DNA of 64,000 nt, taken from Physcomitrium patens. Taxonomy: Eukaryota > Streptophyta > Bryopsida > Funariales > Funariaceae. Position numbers and translations under genes: made by a program. Position 1 is the stretch's first letter. The number at the start of each line of letters is the position of its first letter. The notes below the pieces were generated by a model. That model ran no database searches and was not told the origin of the DNA. It was given only the letters and a program-made list of their open reading frames with translations. The stretch lies in contig NC_037260.1 in the NCBI RefSeq assembly GCF_000002425.4, forward strand, positions 12,519,516 through 12,583,515. The letters run 5' to 3'. Shown piece by piece: positions 1-60,508 of the stretch.

Positions 1-2801
1 TTGTTCCCCGCTCTTTAAGTCCCTGCAGTGGCAAATGACTTCCAGCTGAAATTTACAGCGTGTTAATTAGGTCCATGCAGGTCAGAGTTGCCTGAGTTTG
101 CTCTTTCGCATGCTTCGCGTCCATAGTCCATGCCGAATATTATGTCTGTCTGATCTCATGTGATTATTTATCTGAATTTCTTCTTTATGTGTTCTTTCAA
201 TATATGTGACCCCGTGGCATTCAGGTGCTTTGGTGGAGATAAATTGGTGAGATTGGTGACTTCAACAACGATGAATGATTTGCGGCTGCACAAGGGCGTA
301 GTGCCTAGGCATGAGAAATTCAAGGAAGCACGTAGGGTGGCACAAACTACGCGTCAGCGTGCCGCACGAAGTGGCCTTTTACAAAACTTGAGGAATTTTC
401 TAACATCGGATTCCTTTATGTATGGACCTCTTCTAGAGTCGCCACCACCCACAGTACTAAGAAGGGACGACTCAGAGCCTCACACTCCAGGTACTTGCTC
501 CGCTGCATCTACATGCATCCACATAAGCTCAAATTGTTCATAAAAACTTCATGTTTTGATGACAAACATCTCCAGGAAAGAGTGGTGATTGTCCATGTGG
601 GGAATGCTTTTCAGAGAGGGAGCATGAGGATGGTGATTTCGATGGCGGTTCAACACGGGACGATGCAAACGGTACAGAGAGGGGCGAAAGCCCAAAAGAG
701 CACGATAACGATCCCGAGGAAACTCCAATAAAGTTTCAAGAATCTCGCACTACTAGAACCACCCTGTCGGTCACGCGTGGTACGCCCCGTTCTGGACGAA
801 CCGTGGTGCCGCCTGCGGATGGAAGTCGGACTCTTAAAAGTACAGTCCCGGTAATGAAGCCGTCGCGAGATGGGCCATTAAGTTCCCCTTGATGTTCCAG
901 CACGATGACCTTAACTCGTTTGAGTCTGATTTATACACTGCCACGAGGCAGCATGTCATGAATGTTCTTGGTACCATATTTCACTGTGCAGTTCTGTAAA
1001 TGCTTAGCAAGCTTAGGTAGTCCAAAAGTAGGCCAGAGCGTGTTTCTGCCCAAGTATTCTTGGGGGTGGAAATTTTTTGATGCTTACGAAGCTCAATATG
1101 TACATGTCTTATCATTGAACCTGACATAACGATTGACCATATTCTTTTTACTCTTCTGGAAACTCAGTAATTCTGTGCAACTCGTGAAGTTATTGATTAA
1201 ATCTATGATTGAATCTTCCAAAATTTTATTGATCTCAGAAGGAGAGTTTAGAGTGAAAAACTCGATTATGTGCATGGATTGTTTTGAATCTTAAGTATCG
1301 GGCTTCAAGGAAGTTGTGGGTTAAATTGCTTGTCTCTCGGAGTATTTTTTTCTTATGTTTCTCGGCATTGGTATTGAATACTTGAAACAATTCCATCACA
1401 GGTGAGCATGAGCACGACCACGACCTTCTTAAAGATGCAAGTGAGGGGCAGTGAGGGAAGTCTTTTGTTCGATGATGGGGATCAAGGAACTTCTTCTATG
1501 ACCAGTTCTTACGATGATGATTTCACCCTCCTTGACAGTGAAATTGCTCGCAAGGTGGGTGCTGAATTAATCGTTTGTAGCTTTGTTATCTTTGAAATGG
1601 GAGTGAAGCGGCTGTTACTTTTCAGCCGATTTACGTCCAAACGTATTGTTGTTGTTCCCAATGCGCAGTTGTTCGATAATTTACCTGAATGTAGCAAGCA
1701 GATTTTGGCAGCTTAGAACGGTTTCAGATTAATTCTTTGCCTTGAGGGCCAGGTCGTTCATATGCTATTGAGCAAAGTGGGAGGGAGGTATTCAAAGGAG
1801 TTGGGTGTTAACGTGGATGCTGGAGAAGAAGAAGTGGAGAAATGGTTCTTAGCTGTTGCTCTTTTTCACCGGCACTTGACATTCGATGTTCTGAAGAAGA
1901 CCTTTCAGGTGGGTTCACTTGTTAATCGTGGAGCTTCTGAACTTTGTGCGTAACGAGCATTCATTATTACACGCGTCTATTGCTGTCTATCAAATGGGTG
2001 GTGATCAGTTCTTGATGTGCAGAAATTGATAGGTGCTGGAATTGTTAGTGTAAGGGGAATGCTGCATATGGAAGAAGAGGATATTGCTGATATTTTGGAA
2101 ACTGCTGGCTACACCACCTATAAGCACAGGTAAAATGAATTTGCCTCTTCTTTGAAATAAATTTGTTTAGAATAAGTTGGGCCTATAATACATAATGTTT
2201 TGTTAATGATCAGCGCTGTTATTATCTACCTGCAAGTATTATACAACAGCAAAATCCACAGCCAAGTGTTGATTGTTTTTATTATCATTGTTATTGTTTG
2301 CATCCAGAGCGGCTTCTCGTATTAGGAGGTTAGCGTTACAGCTGGAAGCAGAACACAAGGGCAAGGTGTCCACCTTGAAGCATATTCAAGATTCTCATGA
2401 GGTCTGCCGTCACATCAGCAACTTACATGGCCTCTCAACACACACTTGCAACATATTTTTGAGGTTAATTTTGATTCAACTTTCGACAGCTTTTCGTTGA
2501 TTTTACCAGCATCGTTACACAAGTATGGGCAACGGGCATCTACTATTGTTAATTGACTTGGAGTCGCCTGTGATGCATCATCGACTGTAGCGTGAATTAG
2601 CTGTTGAAACAATACGAACACGACAAGCTTCTTGATTGATATTACACATATTTTTGTAGTTCATATTTTAACGTGATTTCAAATACAACAGGGAGCTGCG
2701 AGGTGTTTGGCCAGGAGCGGCTACAGACTATGACAGGCGGACAAAGCGTGCTGCCATGCACTTACGAATTGCTGAATTCGATAAATCGGAGGAGTCCAAC
2801 A

Positions 2802-3087
2802 TGTTGAAGGAAAGAACTCATTTAGTTGTTGCTAATGGTCAATAGAGTATATGAGTAATGAGGGATATCCTACAAGGTTAGTTGCTGGTCTATAGTGCCT
2901 TAGAATACAAGGAGAGGGCTGGTCCTAAGAGATATCCCATATGGGTTGTAACACATGGTACCTTGGTACTAGTATATAAGAAAAGGGTTGGCATGGGAAG
3001 AATCATCTCATACCACATTCTATTTGTGAAGTGCAACCTTGCTGGTCCTAACTTGCTTGTGTGGAGTTTGCTTTCTATGTTTCAATA
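2802..3087 (+). repeat. 5' LTR of the Copia element
   Basis: 286 bp, starting TGTTGAAGG and ending TTTCAATA. A TATA-like TATATAAG lies at 2973-2980, a plausible U3 promoter. It matches 7599-7884 with no difference that I can find. Confidence 0.5.
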
Positions 3088-3101
3088 GGTTATGGGCCCA
3101 C
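3088..3101 (+). other. Primer-binding site resembling internal initiator tRNA-Met
   Basis: The sequence immediately after the LTR begins GGTTATGGGCCCAC. It is complementary to the anticodon stem-loop of eukaryotic initiator tRNA-Met (GUGGGCCCAUAACC), not to its 3' end, whose site would read TGGTATCAGAGC. Drosophila copia and some related elements prime from a cleaved half-tRNA at this region. The complementarity is read directly; the mechanism is inferred from those relatives. Confidence 0.5.
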
Positions 3102-3515
3102 ACTCTCTTACCAAGTAAGTTGTTCTTGCATTATTTTCTTTGTTGCTTACTTTGGTGGTTGGGATCTTATGGTAGAATGGTGCTAGTGTGTTGTTGAAGT
3201 CATTGCTCCTGGATTTGTGAGTATATGAGTTTTGTGCAAGACCTTGATAGTGTCTTTGCTGAAGTAACACTAGTGTTTGAAAGTTTCATGAGATAGTGAG
3301 TCATTTTGAGTGGAGTGACGTGAGGGAGACTTATGAGAGCCATAGAATTACTTTACAATTCATTCCCCACCATTTAGACGTGATTTGGACTCATAATTTA
3401 CAAAAAGTTGCAAAACAGCGAATTCTGGGTTTGTGGTTCAGCGATCTTTGAGTAGTGATATCTTCTCCATTACAACTCCAAATCAAGAGTTTTTTGGACC
3501 TACGTGTAGCTTGAG

Positions 3516-6500
3516 ATGGCATCTTTTGAGGGTGATAGCTTGAGAATGGTTGAAAAGTTCAAAGGTGACAACTTTCACCACTGGAAGGCCAAAATGGAGC
3601 TACTTTTGGCGTCATTGGATCTTTGGGAGATTGTATGTGAGGACGAAGAGGCACCTGGGGTAGAGGCAAGTATCAAGGAGCATAAGGAGTTCAAAAGACG
3701 AGAAAAGAAGGCTTTTGGCATAATTGCCACCAATTTAGATGAGAGCAACTTTGCTCATGTCATTTCTTGCAAAGGGGCAGCAGAGGCATGGAAGACTCTT
3801 TGCAACGTCTATGAGAGTAGAAATCTCTCCAATGTACTATGGTCAAGGCAAAAATTCTTCACCGTGAAGATGGAAGAAGGTGAAGATCTCATGGCTCATG
3901 TGAATAAGGTAAAAGCACTTGCAAACCAACTTGCTGTTATTGACAAGCCTTTACCTGAAGAAGATGTTGTGATGACATTGCTCTCAAGCCTTCCAGACTC
4001 CTATTCCTCCCTCATTGTGGCATTGGAGTCAATTTCAAGAAAAGATCTTACTTTGGACTATGTCACGGCAAGACTAGCCCATGAAGTGACCAAAAGAAAG
4101 CAAAAGGAGTCTATTGGAGAGCAATCAGCACTATTCACGAGACCAAGTAAGGCAAGTACTTCCATTCAACGTAATCTTCCCAAAACTTGTTATATTTGTG
4201 GAAAACCAGGGCATTTTGCTAGGAATTGTTTCAAGGCAAAGAGAGGAGAAAGAGAGAATGCCAATAATGCTTTTCATGACCATGGAGGTGATGACTTTGC
4301 ATTCATGGCAAAACAAACTTCTTCCATGCTTGATATGAGCAAATGGATCGTGGATTCTGGATGTACCAAACACATGACTCCATACAAGTGTTCATTTAAC
4401 ACTTATCAACCAATTCCAGCAACTAAGGTTTGGTTAGGTGATAATGGTATGGTACAAGCCATTGGAATGGGCACCATTGTAGTGGAAGTAGTGGTCAAGG
4501 GCATAAGCAAGAGGATCACACTCAAGGATGTGTTGCATGTGCCAAAGATGAAGAAGAACCTCCTTTCGGTGAGCAAACTTGTAAGTCATGGGTGCAAAGT
4601 GCAATTCAATATGAATGGATGTTTTGTGAGAACCATGGAAGGCAAAGAAGTAGCAAAAGGGATTAGAGATGGCAATCTCTATATTATCAATTGCAAGCGC
4701 ATCAATGGAGTAGAGGTTGCTGCTTTTGCTGAATTTCCATCAAATGAAGATAAGGTGGGCATTTGGCATCAAAGACTTGGACATTTGAATGCCAAAAGCA
4801 TGAAGGAGCTTCAATCCATGGTAAGTGGCTTAGACCTTGGCCATTCTACTATGAATCTATCTTGTGAAGGTTGCATTCAAAGCAAACAACATAGGACACC
4901 ATTTCCTAGTGGAATTGCAACAAGAGCAAATCAATTGCTGGAGCTTGTGCATTCGGATGTTTGTGGACCCATGAAAACAGCATCTATGAGTGGAGCAAGA
5001 TATTTTGTCACATTTATTGATGACTTTTCAAGGAAGGTATGGATTTATATCATCAAGGCCAAAAGTGAGTGTTTTGCTAAGTTTAAGGAGTGGAAAGCAC
5101 TTGTGGAGAAGCAATGTGAGCACAAGATTAAGGTGCTGCGATCGGACAATGGAGGTGAGTATTTGTCCAAAGACTTTGATGAGTTATTGAAGCATGAAGG
5201 CATTGCAAGACAAACCTCCACTCCCTATACCCCACAACAAAATGGAGTTGCTGAAAGAGCAAATCGCACCATTGTGGAGATGGCAAGGAGTATGATTCAT
5301 GCTCAAAAGCTTGGATATGAGTATTGGGCGGAAGCTGTGGTAAATGCCGTATATACAAGAAATAGGTGTCCCACAAGTGCACTTGAAGGAATGACTCCCG
5401 AAGAAGCTTGGACGGGTAAGAAACCTTGTTTATCTCATATGAGGATTTTTGGATGCATTGCATATGCTAAAGTTCCAGATAGTATGAGAGGCAAACTTGA
5501 TGCAAAGGGCACAAGATGTGCATTCCTTGGATATTGTGAAGGCACCAAGGCATATAGGCTCATGTGTTTAGACACCAAAAAGATCATCAAAAGTCGTGAT
5601 GTAGAGTTCTTAGAGTATAAGAGTGCAAGTGAAAAGTGGGAGATGTGTCCAAGTGGGAGTAGTGGTGTGTTTGTGGACACATCTTCAATTTCAGCAAACA
5701 AAGAAGAAGATGAAGAAGAGCATTCTCAAAGTGAAGATGAAAATGAAGATATCATTGAAGAAGAGCCCAACTCTATAAAGACTTCAATTCCAGCAAGATA
5801 CAACAAGGACAATGAAGAGAATGAAGATGAAGAATATCAACCAATGAATGAGAGAAAGAAGTGTATGAGCCATAGAAGGCAGCAAGAGGTGCATGAAGGC
5901 TCATCTTCTTTGCATGAAAGAAGATATCCAACACGTGAAAGAAGACCACAAGGTGAATGGTGGAAGAACCACATCTTTCCACAAGTAAGTGAAGATCAGG
6001 CCAATGTTGCTCTTCTTGATGATCCATTGACTTTGTGTGATGCAATGAGGTGTGGTGATGCAATAAAGTGGGAGATTGCTATGCAAGAAGAGTACAAATC
6101 TCTTATGGACAACAAGACATCGGAGTTGACTCCACTTCCACCAAATCGTTCAGCAATTGGATGTAAGTGGGTGTTTAGAACCAAGAGAGATGCTATAGGC
6201 AATGTTGTGAGGTACAAAGCAAGATTGGTTGCCAAAGGCTACTCACAAGTTGCTGGAGTAGATTTTAATGAGACATTTGCTCCAGTGGCCAAATTCACTA
6301 CCATTAGAACTATAGTAGCAATTGGAGCATCAATAGACTTGGAGATGCATCAAATGGACGTCAAGACAGCCTTCTTGAATGGAGAATTGGAAGAAGACAT
6401 CTACATGGAGCAACCTCAAGGATTTATTGATCAAGACAAACCCAACCTTGTATGCAAGTTGAAGAAGTCATTGTATGGACTCAAGCAATCACCAAGAGCA

Positions 6501-7580
6501 TGGTATCAACGCATTGACTCATTCTTTGTGAAGGAAGGTTTTATAAGAAGTGAAGCTGACCATTCTTTGTATGTGTTGCAAGCCAAGGACTTCTTGCTGG
6601 TTGTGATCCTCTATGTAGATGATTTAATCATCTTAAGCAACACCATGGTAAAATTAGATTGGTTGAAGAAGAAATTGGAGAAAGAGTTTGAAATGAGTGA
6701 TTTGGGAGAGCTTCATTATTGTTTGGGTGTGGAATTTACAAGGAATAGAGTATCAAAGACCATCACATTGAGTCAAAGCAAGTACATTGAAGAAGTATTG
6801 AAACGATTCAATATGCAAGATTGCAAGCCCATTGGAACTCCATTGGAAGCCAACTTGAAGTTGATGAAGCTCACGGATGAGGAATATGCTGAAGTTGAGC
6901 ATCAAATGCAAGGCATACCATACAAGGCAGCAGTAGGCTCACTCATGTATGCAATGGTGGGTACAAGGATGGATCTTGCATTTGCAGTAAGTGTTGTAAG
7001 TCAACACATGGCAAAACCAGGTCCTATGCATTGGGCAACCATCAAAAGAATCATGAGGTACTTGAAAGGCTCTTTGAACCATAAACTATGTCTTGGAGGA
7101 AATAACATTGCATTACATGGATATTGTGATGCGGATTGGGCTGGAGATACAAATGATAGAAGATCAACAACGGGCTATGTATTCTTTGTTGGAATGGGAG
7201 CCATATCTTGGAATTGTAAGAGACAACCAACCATTGCAAGGTCCACAATGGAGGCGGAGTATATGGCAGCAAGTCATGGAGCAATGGAGGCAATTTGGTT
7301 GAGGTTGTTGTTGGAAGACATTGGACTTGTGCAATTGGAAGCCACTCCATTGAGATGTGACAATCAAGGATGTTTGGCTTTTGCAAAGAATCCAAAGCAT
7401 CATGCAAGAACCAAGCACATTGATATTCAACACCACTTTATAAGAGAGAAGATAGAGATGGGAGTTATTGATATGATGTATTGTGAAACCAAATACATGT
7501 TGGCTGATTTGCTAACAAAAGCCTTGGTGAAAGAGAGACACAACATATTGAGTAAGGCATTAGGATTGATAGCTAATTGA
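3516..7580 (+). CDS. gag-pol: Copia gag-pol polyprotein
   Basis: A single 1354-residue ORF. The N-terminal gag part resembles the UBN2/gag family and ends in a CX2CX4HX4C zinc knuckle at about 225-238. Protease follows with D-S-G at about 280-282. Integrase shows the HX3H/CX2C pre-integrase motif from about 418, then catalytic Asp near 481, Asp near 544 and Glu near 580. A Glu/Asp-rich linker at about 730-790 separates integrase from reverse transcriptase, which carries YVDD at about 1033-1036. RNase H follows with D-A-D-W near 1204 and the conserved KHIDI block near 1305. All key residues are present and there is no break. Gag and pol share one frame, as in most plant Copia elements, so the Gag:Pol ratio must be set by processing or splicing. 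ATG 3516 is the first in the frame and lies 429 bp after the LTR. Confidence 0.5.
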   Translation: MASFEGDSLRMVEKFKGDNFHHWKAKMELLLASLDLWEIVCEDEEAPGVEASIKEHKEFKRREKKAFGIIATNLDESNFAHVISCKGAAEAWKTLCNVYESRNLSNVLWSRQKFFTVKMEEGEDLMAHVNKVKALANQLAVIDKPLPEEDVVMTLLSSLPDSYSSLIVALESISRKDLTLDYVTARLAHEVTKRKQKESIGEQSALFTRPSKASTSIQRNLPKTCYICGKPGHFARNCFKAKRGERENANNAFHDHGGDDFAFMAKQTSSMLDMSKWIVDSGCTKHMTPYKCSFNTYQPIPATKVWLGDNGMVQAIGMGTIVVEVVVKGISKRITLKDVLHVPKMKKNLLSVSKLVSHGCKVQFNMNGCFVRTMEGKEVAKGIRDGNLYIINCKRINGVEVAAFAEFPSNEDKVGIWHQRLGHLNAKSMKELQSMVSGLDLGHSTMNLSCEGCIQSKQHRTPFPSGIATRANQLLELVHSDVCGPMKTASMSGARYFVTFIDDFSRKVWIYIIKAKSECFAKFKEWKALVEKQCEHKIKVLRSDNGGEYLSKDFDELLKHEGIARQTSTPYTPQQNGVAERANRTIVEMARSMIHAQKLGYEYWAEAVVNAVYTRNRCPTSALEGMTPEEAWTGKKPCLSHMRIFGCIAYAKVPDSMRGKLDAKGTRCAFLGYCEGTKAYRLMCLDTKKIIKSRDVEFLEYKSASEKWEMCPSGSSGVFVDTSSISANKEEDEEEHSQSEDENEDIIEEEPNSIKTSIPARYNKDNEENEDEEYQPMNERKKCMSHRRQQEVHEGSSSLHERRYPTRERRPQGEWWKNHIFPQVSEDQANVALLDDPLTLCDAMRCGDAIKWEIAMQEEYKSLMDNKTSELTPLPPNRSAIGCKWVFRTKRDAIGNVVRYKARLVAKGYSQVAGVDFNETFAPVAKFTTIRTIVAIGASIDLEMHQMDVKTAFLNGELEEDIYMEQPQGFIDQDKPNLVCKLKKSLYGLKQSPRAWYQRIDSFFVKEGFIRSEADHSLYVLQAKDFLLVVILYVDDLIILSNTMVKLDWLKKKLEKEFEMSDLGELHYCLGVEFTRNRVSKTITLSQSKYIEEVLKRFNMQDCKPIGTPLEANLKLMKLTDEEYAEVEHQMQGIPYKAAVGSLMYAMVGTRMDLAFAVSVVSQHMAKPGPMHWATIKRIMRYLKGSLNHKLCLGGNNIALHGYCDADWAGDTNDRRSTTGYVFFVGMGAISWNCKRQPTIARSTMEAEYMAASHGAMEAIWLRLLLEDIGLVQLEATPLRCDNQGCLAFAKNPKHHARTKHIDIQHHFIREKIEMGVIDMMYCETKYMLADLLTKALVKERHNILSKALGLIAN

Positions 7581-7588
7581 CCAGTAGC

Positions 7589-7598
7589 AAAGTGGGAG
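7589..7598 (+). other. Polypurine tract of the Copia element
   Basis: AAAGTGGGAG lies directly before the 3' LTR, the expected place for the plus-strand primer. The single T is tolerated in many plant elements. Confidence 0.5.
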
Positions 7599-7884
7599 TG
7601 TTGAAGGAAAGAACTCATTTAGTTGTTGCTAATGGTCAATAGAGTATATGAGTAATGAGGGATATCCTACAAGGTTAGTTGCTGGTCTATAGTGCCTTAG
7701 AATACAAGGAGAGGGCTGGTCCTAAGAGATATCCCATATGGGTTGTAACACATGGTACCTTGGTACTAGTATATAAGAAAAGGGTTGGCATGGGAAGAAT
7801 CATCTCATACCACATTCTATTTGTGAAGTGCAACCTTGCTGGTCCTAACTTGCTTGTGTGGAGTTTGCTTTCTATGTTTCAATA
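7599..7884 (+). repeat. 3' LTR of the Copia element
   Basis: 286 bp, apparently identical to the 5' LTR; its TATA-like site falls at 7770-7777. It points into the last two host exons (7890-7943 and 8110-8261), so it could start a 5'-truncated host transcript; no direct evidence for that is visible. Confidence 0.5.
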
Positions 7885-8390
7885 CAACAAGCCGAGCATT
7901 TTCAACCCGTATACCTCGCTGAAACATCTTGCCGAGAGAATTGGTAAGCTCAGACAGATCACAAGGTGAATGGCCCCATTTTCTCTATAACAAATAGGTC
8001 ACTGATGTGCTATCACCTGGTGTTTGGAATGAACTTGAGTTCATAATTGATGGTAATGCCTGTCATCGCAAATTGTTATCATCGATATAAGCATCTTTTT
8101 CTGATGCAGGTGTGGATGAAAGGGACTTAGAGGTGGCTCTTGTCAAACTAGGACTCGCTCACGAGCGCCATTACCGTGAGTGTCCTGGTGGTCCTCTTTG
8201 CACCTTCCTCATCTCCTCTGATGAACAAGAAAATCCTGAAGGGCAAGACCTCACCGGTTGAGTAGCGATCTCAGCTTTTTCCCTTGGTCGTGAGTTGTAC
8301 TTAGTCTTACGTCAGGTGTGAGTCAATTTACCGAGTGTAAAGCGTACGAAGAATTGGTGTATATACTTAAACTGTGTACATAATTGTAGA

Positions 8391-57911: not shown

Positions 57912-60508
57912 ATGCGTGCTTTCGAGGTGATTGGGACGGGTTACAGCAGTTTGGTCAGAGATCGGTCTGCTGTGGAGGAGGAGGAGGGTTTCGAGGCGAA
58001 GGATGCAGGGGCGCTGTTCGTGCTCGAGTCCAAGGGTCTGTGTGCATTCAAACTCTTGGCCTTTCGTGTTTTGTTTTGTTTTGTTTTTCTCTTCGCTGGT
58101 GCTGCGTTACATCTCTTGGCAAGTGCTTCAGGGTCTGCTATTCGATGCCGAATGTTAGGTTTATGGTAGAATTTCAGTGAGCTTATACGGGGAATGTTTG
58201 TCTGTGTTGCCGTAGCATCATTCATGTCTTGCGTCTCTGTGGTGCTGTTTGAGCCCTGATTGATGTTAAGCCCTTGCAAATCAAAACTTTGTCTTGTCGA
58301 CTGTCGCTAGTCCTCATTTCCTGTAGTTCACCGGCCGTCAGTAGCGGTATAGCGTAGGAATCACGGCGTGCGTGGTTGTTGATAATGATAGATTCATATT
58401 TTTGGTGTTTCTATTGCAGGAACATGGTTTCATGCAGGGTATCATTTGACCACAGCTATAGCCGGGCCATCGTTGCTCACGTTGCCGTATGCTTTCCATT
58501 TCTTGGGGTGGGGCCCTGGATTATTCGCGCTCACCATTGCTGGGGCTGTATCAAGTTATGCGTACTGCTTGTTATCCAGGGTGTTGGAACATTATGCCTC
58601 TCAAGGGAAACGGTGCCTTCGGTTTCGAGATCTATCCGACGTTGTGATAGGTTCGTAACTGTTTACCTAGCTCGACCTAAAACGGCGTTTTTCATTGCCA
58701 AAGCAGAGTAAAATTGGTGAATTCTAAATTGCTTCTAAGCATGTATTGGCATGCAATTTAATCTACATAAACTCAGTTTCGAACCAAGTTTCAATGGCAC
58801 TACCTAACAGCACAATCCCGGTCTTATTTTGGGTTAAAGGAACGTAGTTCATGGCTAGATGTGAAGGTTCTGAATGACAAGTTTCCAAATCCTTTGCAGG
58901 GAAACGATGGACGATTTGGTTTGTCATACCCGTGCAGTTTGGAGTATGTTTTGTGACGCTAATCGGAGTTATCTTAACTGGTGGCTATGGTTGCAAGGTG
59001 AGAGGATCGAACTTGTATGCATGCATAGGCGGTTTAAGATCTCAACCGTTAGCAAAGATGATTCAAGAGTAGAGTCACATGTTGTAAAGCTGTTCTTTGT
59101 TTCAAAGCCGTTAACTAGGATACCTTTTTCTCAACTCTAAATATACTAAGATGCTTGGTGTGCGTGCCTTTGCAGCTCATCTATCTGGGACTAGTTCCGG
59201 ATGGCGCAATTCGCTTGTGGGTATTTGTAGCCTTATTTGGTGCAGTGATGATGATTCTTGCACAGCTGCCGTCTTTCCATTCACTGAGACACTTGAGTCT
59301 CTTCTCCCTCTTCTGCTGCTTAGCATACAGCGCATGCGCCGTGATCGGATCTATCATTGCAGGTATCACTCTAATACTTTCAAAAGAGCTGAAGTGGGTA
59401 CAAAACACTAATCAATGCATTGGGTATACCCCTTCTGTGTCAATTAAAACAAAAAAAAGAAAAAAGGAAAGAGCTGAAATGAGTTCATGCATTTCTGGAT
59501 AGAGATTACCAGTTAAATTGATAATGTCAAGTACTCCTTTTCAGGTCATAATCCAAATGTACCCCCGAAAAACTACAGCGTAACAGGTAGTCCTGTTCAG
59601 AAAGTGTTCGGAGTCTTCACAGCTATATCCATCATGGCTGGAGTATATGGTGTGGCTCTTATCCCTGAAATACAGGTAAACTTCATGACGCTGCATTTCT
59701 CCGGGTGTATAATATTCACCAAATTTGCCTATTCTAACAGCTTGTGAACTTGGACCTCTGCAGGCAACAGTGGCGCCTCCTGTAACAGGGAAGATGCAGA
59801 AAGGTATCGCCTTATGCTACACAGTTGTGTTGATCACCTTCTACCCTGTTGCAATCTCTGGCTACTGGGCATTTGGTAACCAAGCATCAGGCAACATCGT
59901 CGACAATCTCGCCCCTGACAAAGGTCCCGATCTCTTGCCGACATGGCTGTTGGGCATCTTAAGTATCGCCATTGTTGCACAGCTTCTCGCCATTGGTTTG
60001 GTAAGCCGTTATCCGCGCGTCATGGATGTTCTCGTTTGATGAATCATTCTCTACCCTTGCACCCTACACTTTTGTGCAATGCAGTCAAAATCTGGTGGTT
60101 TAACTGGTAATCGATTACTGGATGTAGGTGTATTTACAACCCATCTCTGAAGTGCTGGAAAGCAAAACTGGAGATGCAAAACAAGGGAAGTACAGTATCC
60201 GAAATGTAATGCCTCGTCTTGTCTTCCGGTCTCTTTACTTGGCAGTGGTAACGCTCTTGGCGGCGATGCTTCCATTCTTCGGAGACATCATCTCCCTGAT
60301 TGGAGCGTTTGGGTATACGCCGCTTGACTTCGTCCTGCCCATGCTGTTCTACCAGATTGTGTTCCAGCCATCGAGACAGAAACCAATCTTTTGGTTGAAT
60401 TGGACGATTATTATAGTGTTCACGGTCGTTGGGGTGATTGGGTGCATAGCTTCCTTCCGCAGCATCTACATGAATGTGCAAAAGTATCATTTGTTCGGGG
60501 ATGTATGA
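57912..60508 (+). CDS. Amino-acid permease of the AAAP family, GABA/proline transporter type
   Basis: Exons: 57912-58035, 58420-58650, 58900-58997, 59176-59362, 59545-59675, 59764-60000, 60128-60508; all GT-AG with matching phases; 1389 nt, 462 aa, the usual family length. After a short acidic cytosolic N-terminus (RSAVEEEEGFEAKDAGALF) come about ten hydrophobic segments. The first carries the AAAP hallmark HLTTAIAGPSLLTLPYAF, followed by GKRWTIWFVIPVQFGV, GGYGCK, LAQLPSFHSLR, PVTGKMQKGIALCYTV, ISGYWAFGNQASGNI, YLQPISEVLE, RLVFRSLYLAV and PFFGDIISLIGAFGYTPLDF. Members import GABA, proline or related amino acids by proton coupling, mostly at the plasma membrane; the exact substrate cannot be read from sequence. 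Met57912 gives the family-length N-terminus and joins exon 2 in phase as ESKG-TWFH. Confidence 0.5.

Follow-up and report, generated by a model that had tools for sequence, protein, structure and literature searches.

A full-length Ty1/copia retrotransposon, most probably of the RLC5 family, has integrated into a nuclear gene of Physcomitrium patens, one that apparently occurs once in the genome; it struck exon 7 of the gene model and in doing so duplicated the five bases CAACA; we give this reading a probability of about 0.92. The element is complete, measures 5083 bp and occupies positions 2802-7884 of the window, by which we mean the whole stretch of DNA that was analysed (64,000 nucleotides). 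Its parts follow one another on the + strand:

2797..2801, + strand, target-site duplication CAACA, 5' copy
2802..3087, + strand, 5' LTR of 286 bp, starting with TGTTGA and ending with TCAATA
3088..3101, + strand, primer binding site of the half-tRNA type, 14 of 14 nucleotides complementary to the anticodon arm of tRNA-Met
3516..7580, + strand, gag-pol open reading frame, 1354 amino acids in a single frame
7589..7598, + strand, polypurine-tract-like stretch, 9 of 10 bases purines, adjoining the 3' LTR and assigned by reading only
7599..7884, + strand, 3' LTR, matching the 5' LTR at 286 of 286 bases
7885..7889, + strand, target-site duplication CAACA, 3' copy

The two LTRs do not differ at a single one of their 286 bases, and the match between them breaks off exactly at the LTR limits. 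A sequence-only reading of this DNA had proposed identical LTRs, a flanking CAACA duplication and an intact frame of 1354 residues, all of which we recover at the positions listed; it had also named an LTR divergence above about 2% as a result that would refute it, and the comparison, which returned 0 differences in 286 bp, did not do so. LTRs commonly begin with TG and end with CA, a rule that is not strictly defining. Here the ends are TG...TA, both in the window and in the six other full-length copies that we compared (7/7, one LTR read per copy), and these ends are a trait of the family, not damage in the window copy.

The gag-pol polyprotein displays the domain order of Copia elements in its profile matches, namely gag, zinc knuckle, pre-integrase, integrase core, an SH3-like domain and reverse transcriptase (RT), with Pfam E-values of 2.2e-77 for RVT_2, 4e-42 for Retrotran_gag_2 and 6.8e-13 for rve. 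The integrase precedes the reverse transcriptase within one polyprotein (rve at 476-573, RVT_2 at 866-1111); beyond the RT match, where RNase H is expected, no model matched. By its paired LTRs, its short target duplication and its integrase-before-RT order, the element is a Ty1/copia retrotransposon. Within the window we found no further LTR or element copies at an E-value of 1e-3, and neither tRNA genes (ARAGORN) nor Rfam families at gathering score. Far downstream of the element, an open stretch on the + strand from about position 58434 onward resembles, by eye, part of a plant amino-acid transporter.

The sequence following the 5' LTR points to how such an element would be copied. The anticodon-arm pattern of tRNA-Met complementary to the primer binding site occurs at 17 places in the same genome, and ARAGORN recognized 4 tRNA-Met genes in the three loci scanned (L025, L027 and L028), which are probably initiator tRNAs. 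The identical 14 nucleotides follow the LTR at all nine other distinct junctions (ten entries, the element on C24 being entered twice), some of which belong to internally deleted forms. In our reading the element was copied through RNA, with reverse transcription presumably starting from half of a tRNA-Met, probably the initiator, and its own integrase inserted the copy into exon 7, duplicating CAACA.

The priming of Drosophila copia and of yeast Ty5 serves here as general background. The primer site of Drosophila copia is of the half-tRNA type seen in the window element, and that of Ty5 is of a half-tRNA or anticodon-arm type (passages of PMC5371799), both in other hosts and other lineages. 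Among plants, passages of Neumann et al. 2019 (PMC6317226) describe the 1/2tRNA-Met primer site for the Copia lineages Osser, Bryco and part of Gymco-II, and half-tRNA priming as a novelty is therefore rejected. Bryco and Osser share with the window element this primer site, the 5-bp duplication and the Copia domain order (same source), traits that liken the element to both lineages and do not separate Bryco from Osser.

We searched 470,438,890 bases in 101 contigs for relatives of the element. With 40 of 623 candidates scored, the LTR gave 40 near-full-length matches at 99-100%, including the window's own two LTRs, and additionally five shorter matches at 86-99%. An 801-bp segment of the reverse transcriptase, with 40 of 2246 candidates scored, gave 40 full matches at 99-100%, the window's own included, plus one 50-base stretch at 86%. 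Seven full-length copies, the window's among them, were compared along their whole length; they were drawn from the best LTR matches, and the sample therefore leans to young copies. Each of the seven is flanked by a 5-bp duplication. Mismatches between the paired LTRs number 0 (window), 1, 0, 0, 0, 3 and 2, the last pair also differing by one gap, so that identical LTRs are found in four of the seven copies. The search for other full-length copies with identical LTRs, which the earlier reading had recommended, thus turned up three among the six others compared, and identical LTRs are common among full-length copies. The longest open frame spans 1356 residues in four of the seven and is shorter in three.

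This comparison also bears on whether the identity of the window's LTRs reflects the age of the insertion. Were the identity a product of assembly collapse or gene conversion, the insertion would be older than it appears, and the family is indeed abundant and its members very alike, so that repeats can be homogenised. Yet three of the seven copies compared do show LTR differences, each of the six others shows internal mismatches to the window element (between 20 and 68), and all seven have kept a 5-bp duplication of their own, which makes such an artefact or conversion very improbable. The nearest of the six departs from the window element at 20 of 4511 internal positions, and no immediate source copy is therefore seen among them.

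Taking the LTR identity at face value, as our reading of a recent insertion does, and applying a rate of 9e-9 per site per year (given in passages of PMC7466625), 0 differences in 286 bp limit the age of the insertion to at most about 0.58 Myr (95%). At this rate, an insertion 10 kyr old would show no LTR difference with a probability of 95%; the figure falls to 60% for an age of 100 kyr and to 50% for 135 kyr. The claim that the element arrived "very recently" therefore holds in the sense of recent, less than about 0.58 Myr ago, and does not extend to anything tighter. The data support an insertion that is recent in evolutionary terms; it may also be very recent when measured against the divergence of strains.

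Internally deleted relatives adjoin full-length copies at 11.04 Mb of C11 and at 14.97 Mb of C2. For the most part their identity is 88-94%, falling to near 82% in a few short segments, and they have two deletions in common; in form they resemble the truncated tRLC5:

L013:1846-7782, two deleted derivatives in a row, beside a full-length copy
L018:3-1660, deleted derivative, beside a full-length copy

At another locus (L006:1501-2255) we noticed two LTRs only 178 bp of internal sequence apart, a tandem or recombined structure.

The RLC5/tRLC5 family is reportedly also treated by Lang et al. 2018. Passages of Vendrell-Mir et al. 2020 (PMC7466625) describe RLC5 and the truncated tRLC5 of Physcomitrium patens as forming one cluster place per chromosome, and RLC5 clusters are also described for Sphagnum (in passages of PMC9946827). 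The presence of full-length copies beside deleted relatives fits RLC5/tRLC5, and the resemblance extends to membership of the Copia superfamily, the existence of full-length and truncated forms, copies both in clusters and elsewhere, and signs of recent activity. The assignment of the window element to the RLC5 family of Physcomitrium patens, made from these shared features, is most probable. Among the 40 RT copies scored of 2246 candidates, 19 have a neighbouring copy no more than 200 kb away, and the other 21, including the window's, have none; so many lone copies are less expected under RLC5, which is described as clustering. The window copy also departs from that description in that it sits in an exon of a gene model, with no neighbouring copy within 200 kb among those scored. 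According to the same account (PMC7466625), three accessions differ from the reference by 5, 17 and 21 RLC5 insertions; because these are absent from the reference, they have no direct bearing on the site in the window.

The gene that received the element can be modelled, with splice sites chosen by us, as eight exons:

271..490, + strand, host exon 1, with the ATG at 271 as the assumed start
576..850, + strand, host exon 2
1402..1554, + strand, host exon 3
1753..1908, + strand, host exon 4
2023..2129, + strand, host exon 5
2308..2463, + strand, host exon 6, with the donor at 2463 required for phase
2692..2801, + strand, host exon 7 before the element
7890..7943, + strand, host exon 7 after the element, the second CAACA being left out of the count
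8110..8261, + strand, host exon 8 with the stop codon

With the element and one CAACA removed, the eight exons add up to 1383 nt, that is 461 codons including the stop or 460 amino acids, and all phases agree. An alternative donor for exon 6 at 2401 was rejected, as it breaks the frame; the donor at 2463 works. The element, with its 5-bp duplication, thus lies inside a coding exon of the model, exon 7, in agreement with what had been proposed. The host gene had further been described as having exactly 461 codons with all junction phases correct. The open frame and the consistent phases stand, given the donor at 2463; "exactly" does not, because the ATG at 271 is assumed and the host frame is open upstream of it, past an acceptor-like site near 224, which makes 461 codons one model and not a measurement.

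With the element in place, the frame of the model keeps 392 host codons, gains 14 codons of the LTR and meets a stop, and the last 68 of the 460 residues are lost. Translation would accordingly run into the 5' LTR for 14 codons and end there, probably abolishing the function of the gene; as modelled, the interrupted allele cannot make the full protein. Two other views accept the insertion and differ from ours on its effect. According to the first, which we consider quite unlikely, the interrupted allele would still yield a useful protein of 392 host and 14 LTR-encoded residues: the frame does close after the 14 LTR codons, and the helical stretch weakly matched by HhH-GPD and by N-glycosylase/DNA lyase precedes the insertion, but the 68 C-terminal residues are gone.

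On the second view, the element landed in a gene that was dead or dispensable beforehand, so that nothing of consequence was broken. It draws on the presence of the insertion in the sequenced plant and on our finding no second copy: all six genomic matches to the host protein fall at its own locus, and neither a paralogue nor an empty-site duplicate turned up in the genome within the limits of the search tool. For one of the six matches the listing includes a TAA, whose coordinates put it in the intron immediately beyond exon 5. One scan of prokaryote genomes returned no relatives of the host protein. Speaking for a gene that was alive at the time, all eight exons of the model are open, the splice sites are usable and the phase is consistent. 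A frame that is still open after the insertion weighs little here, since less than 0.6 Myr leaves time for few mutations.

The same view gains further from the weakness of every family match, all of which stay below threshold and leave the gene a putative one, predicted by sequence alone. The sequence-only reading had assigned the host protein to a DNA-glycosylase fold, an assignment for which profile searches gave sub-threshold matches. Pfam HhH-GPD matched with E-values of 0.11-0.17 and 12.7-13.3 bits, where the cut-off is 26.2 bits, with nearly the same score for the long and the short exon 6 (13.3 and 13.2 bits), and it was absent from the Pfam listing for the 460-residue model. HhH-GPD was outranked by other matches that were themselves sub-threshold, by DUF1456 (E 0.042 for the 460-residue model and 0.01 for a 244-residue part) and, in a second search, by ARMH5 (E 0.013-0.046). 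DUF5661, DUF4250 and Bmt2 also matched weakly in Pfam. In NCBIfam the best match was DNA polymerase IV (E 0.0042 and 0.0028, with equal scores for the long and the short exon 6), and N-glycosylase/DNA lyase, ranked next, appeared (E 0.016) only with the longer exon 6. We judge the matches to DUF1456, ARMH5, DNA polymerase IV, DUF5661, DUF4250 and Bmt2 to be chance. The sole structure listed in a search of PDB sequences was a DltD-domain protein (E 0.065 and 0.55), and a genome search with PF00730 returned six matches, of which four exceed the cut-off; the host locus is not among the six. Endonuclease III carries a lysine in its HhH-GPD motif; in LHGLSTHTC, the motif-like stretch of the model, we see by eye, in unaligned sequence, no lysine at that place. 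As Pfam, NCBIfam, the PDB sequences and the PF00730 search yielded weak matches only, we rejected the host gene as a clear DNA glycosylase. A helix-hairpin-helix-like host protein is plausible from the sequence. Weighing both sides, we regard a gene that was already dead or dispensable as somewhat unlikely, and we retain the reading in which the insertion probably took away the function of an apparently single-copy gene.

Neither the element nor the way it inserted is out of the ordinary; this is one more insertion of what is most probably a known and active Copia family of the moss. A further-reaching interpretation, which we offer tentatively and hold to be rather unlikely, is that the window captures a natural, accession-specific knock-out, in which a still mobile, centromere-associated family disabled a single-copy HhH-GPD-like gene, with an intact empty-site allele segregating in other accessions of this haploid plant. 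Should another accession have the empty site, the two alleles together would offer a ready natural mutant for a putative single-copy gene of a haploid model plant, and a family known otherwise for its centromere clusters would gain an insertion event with a date.
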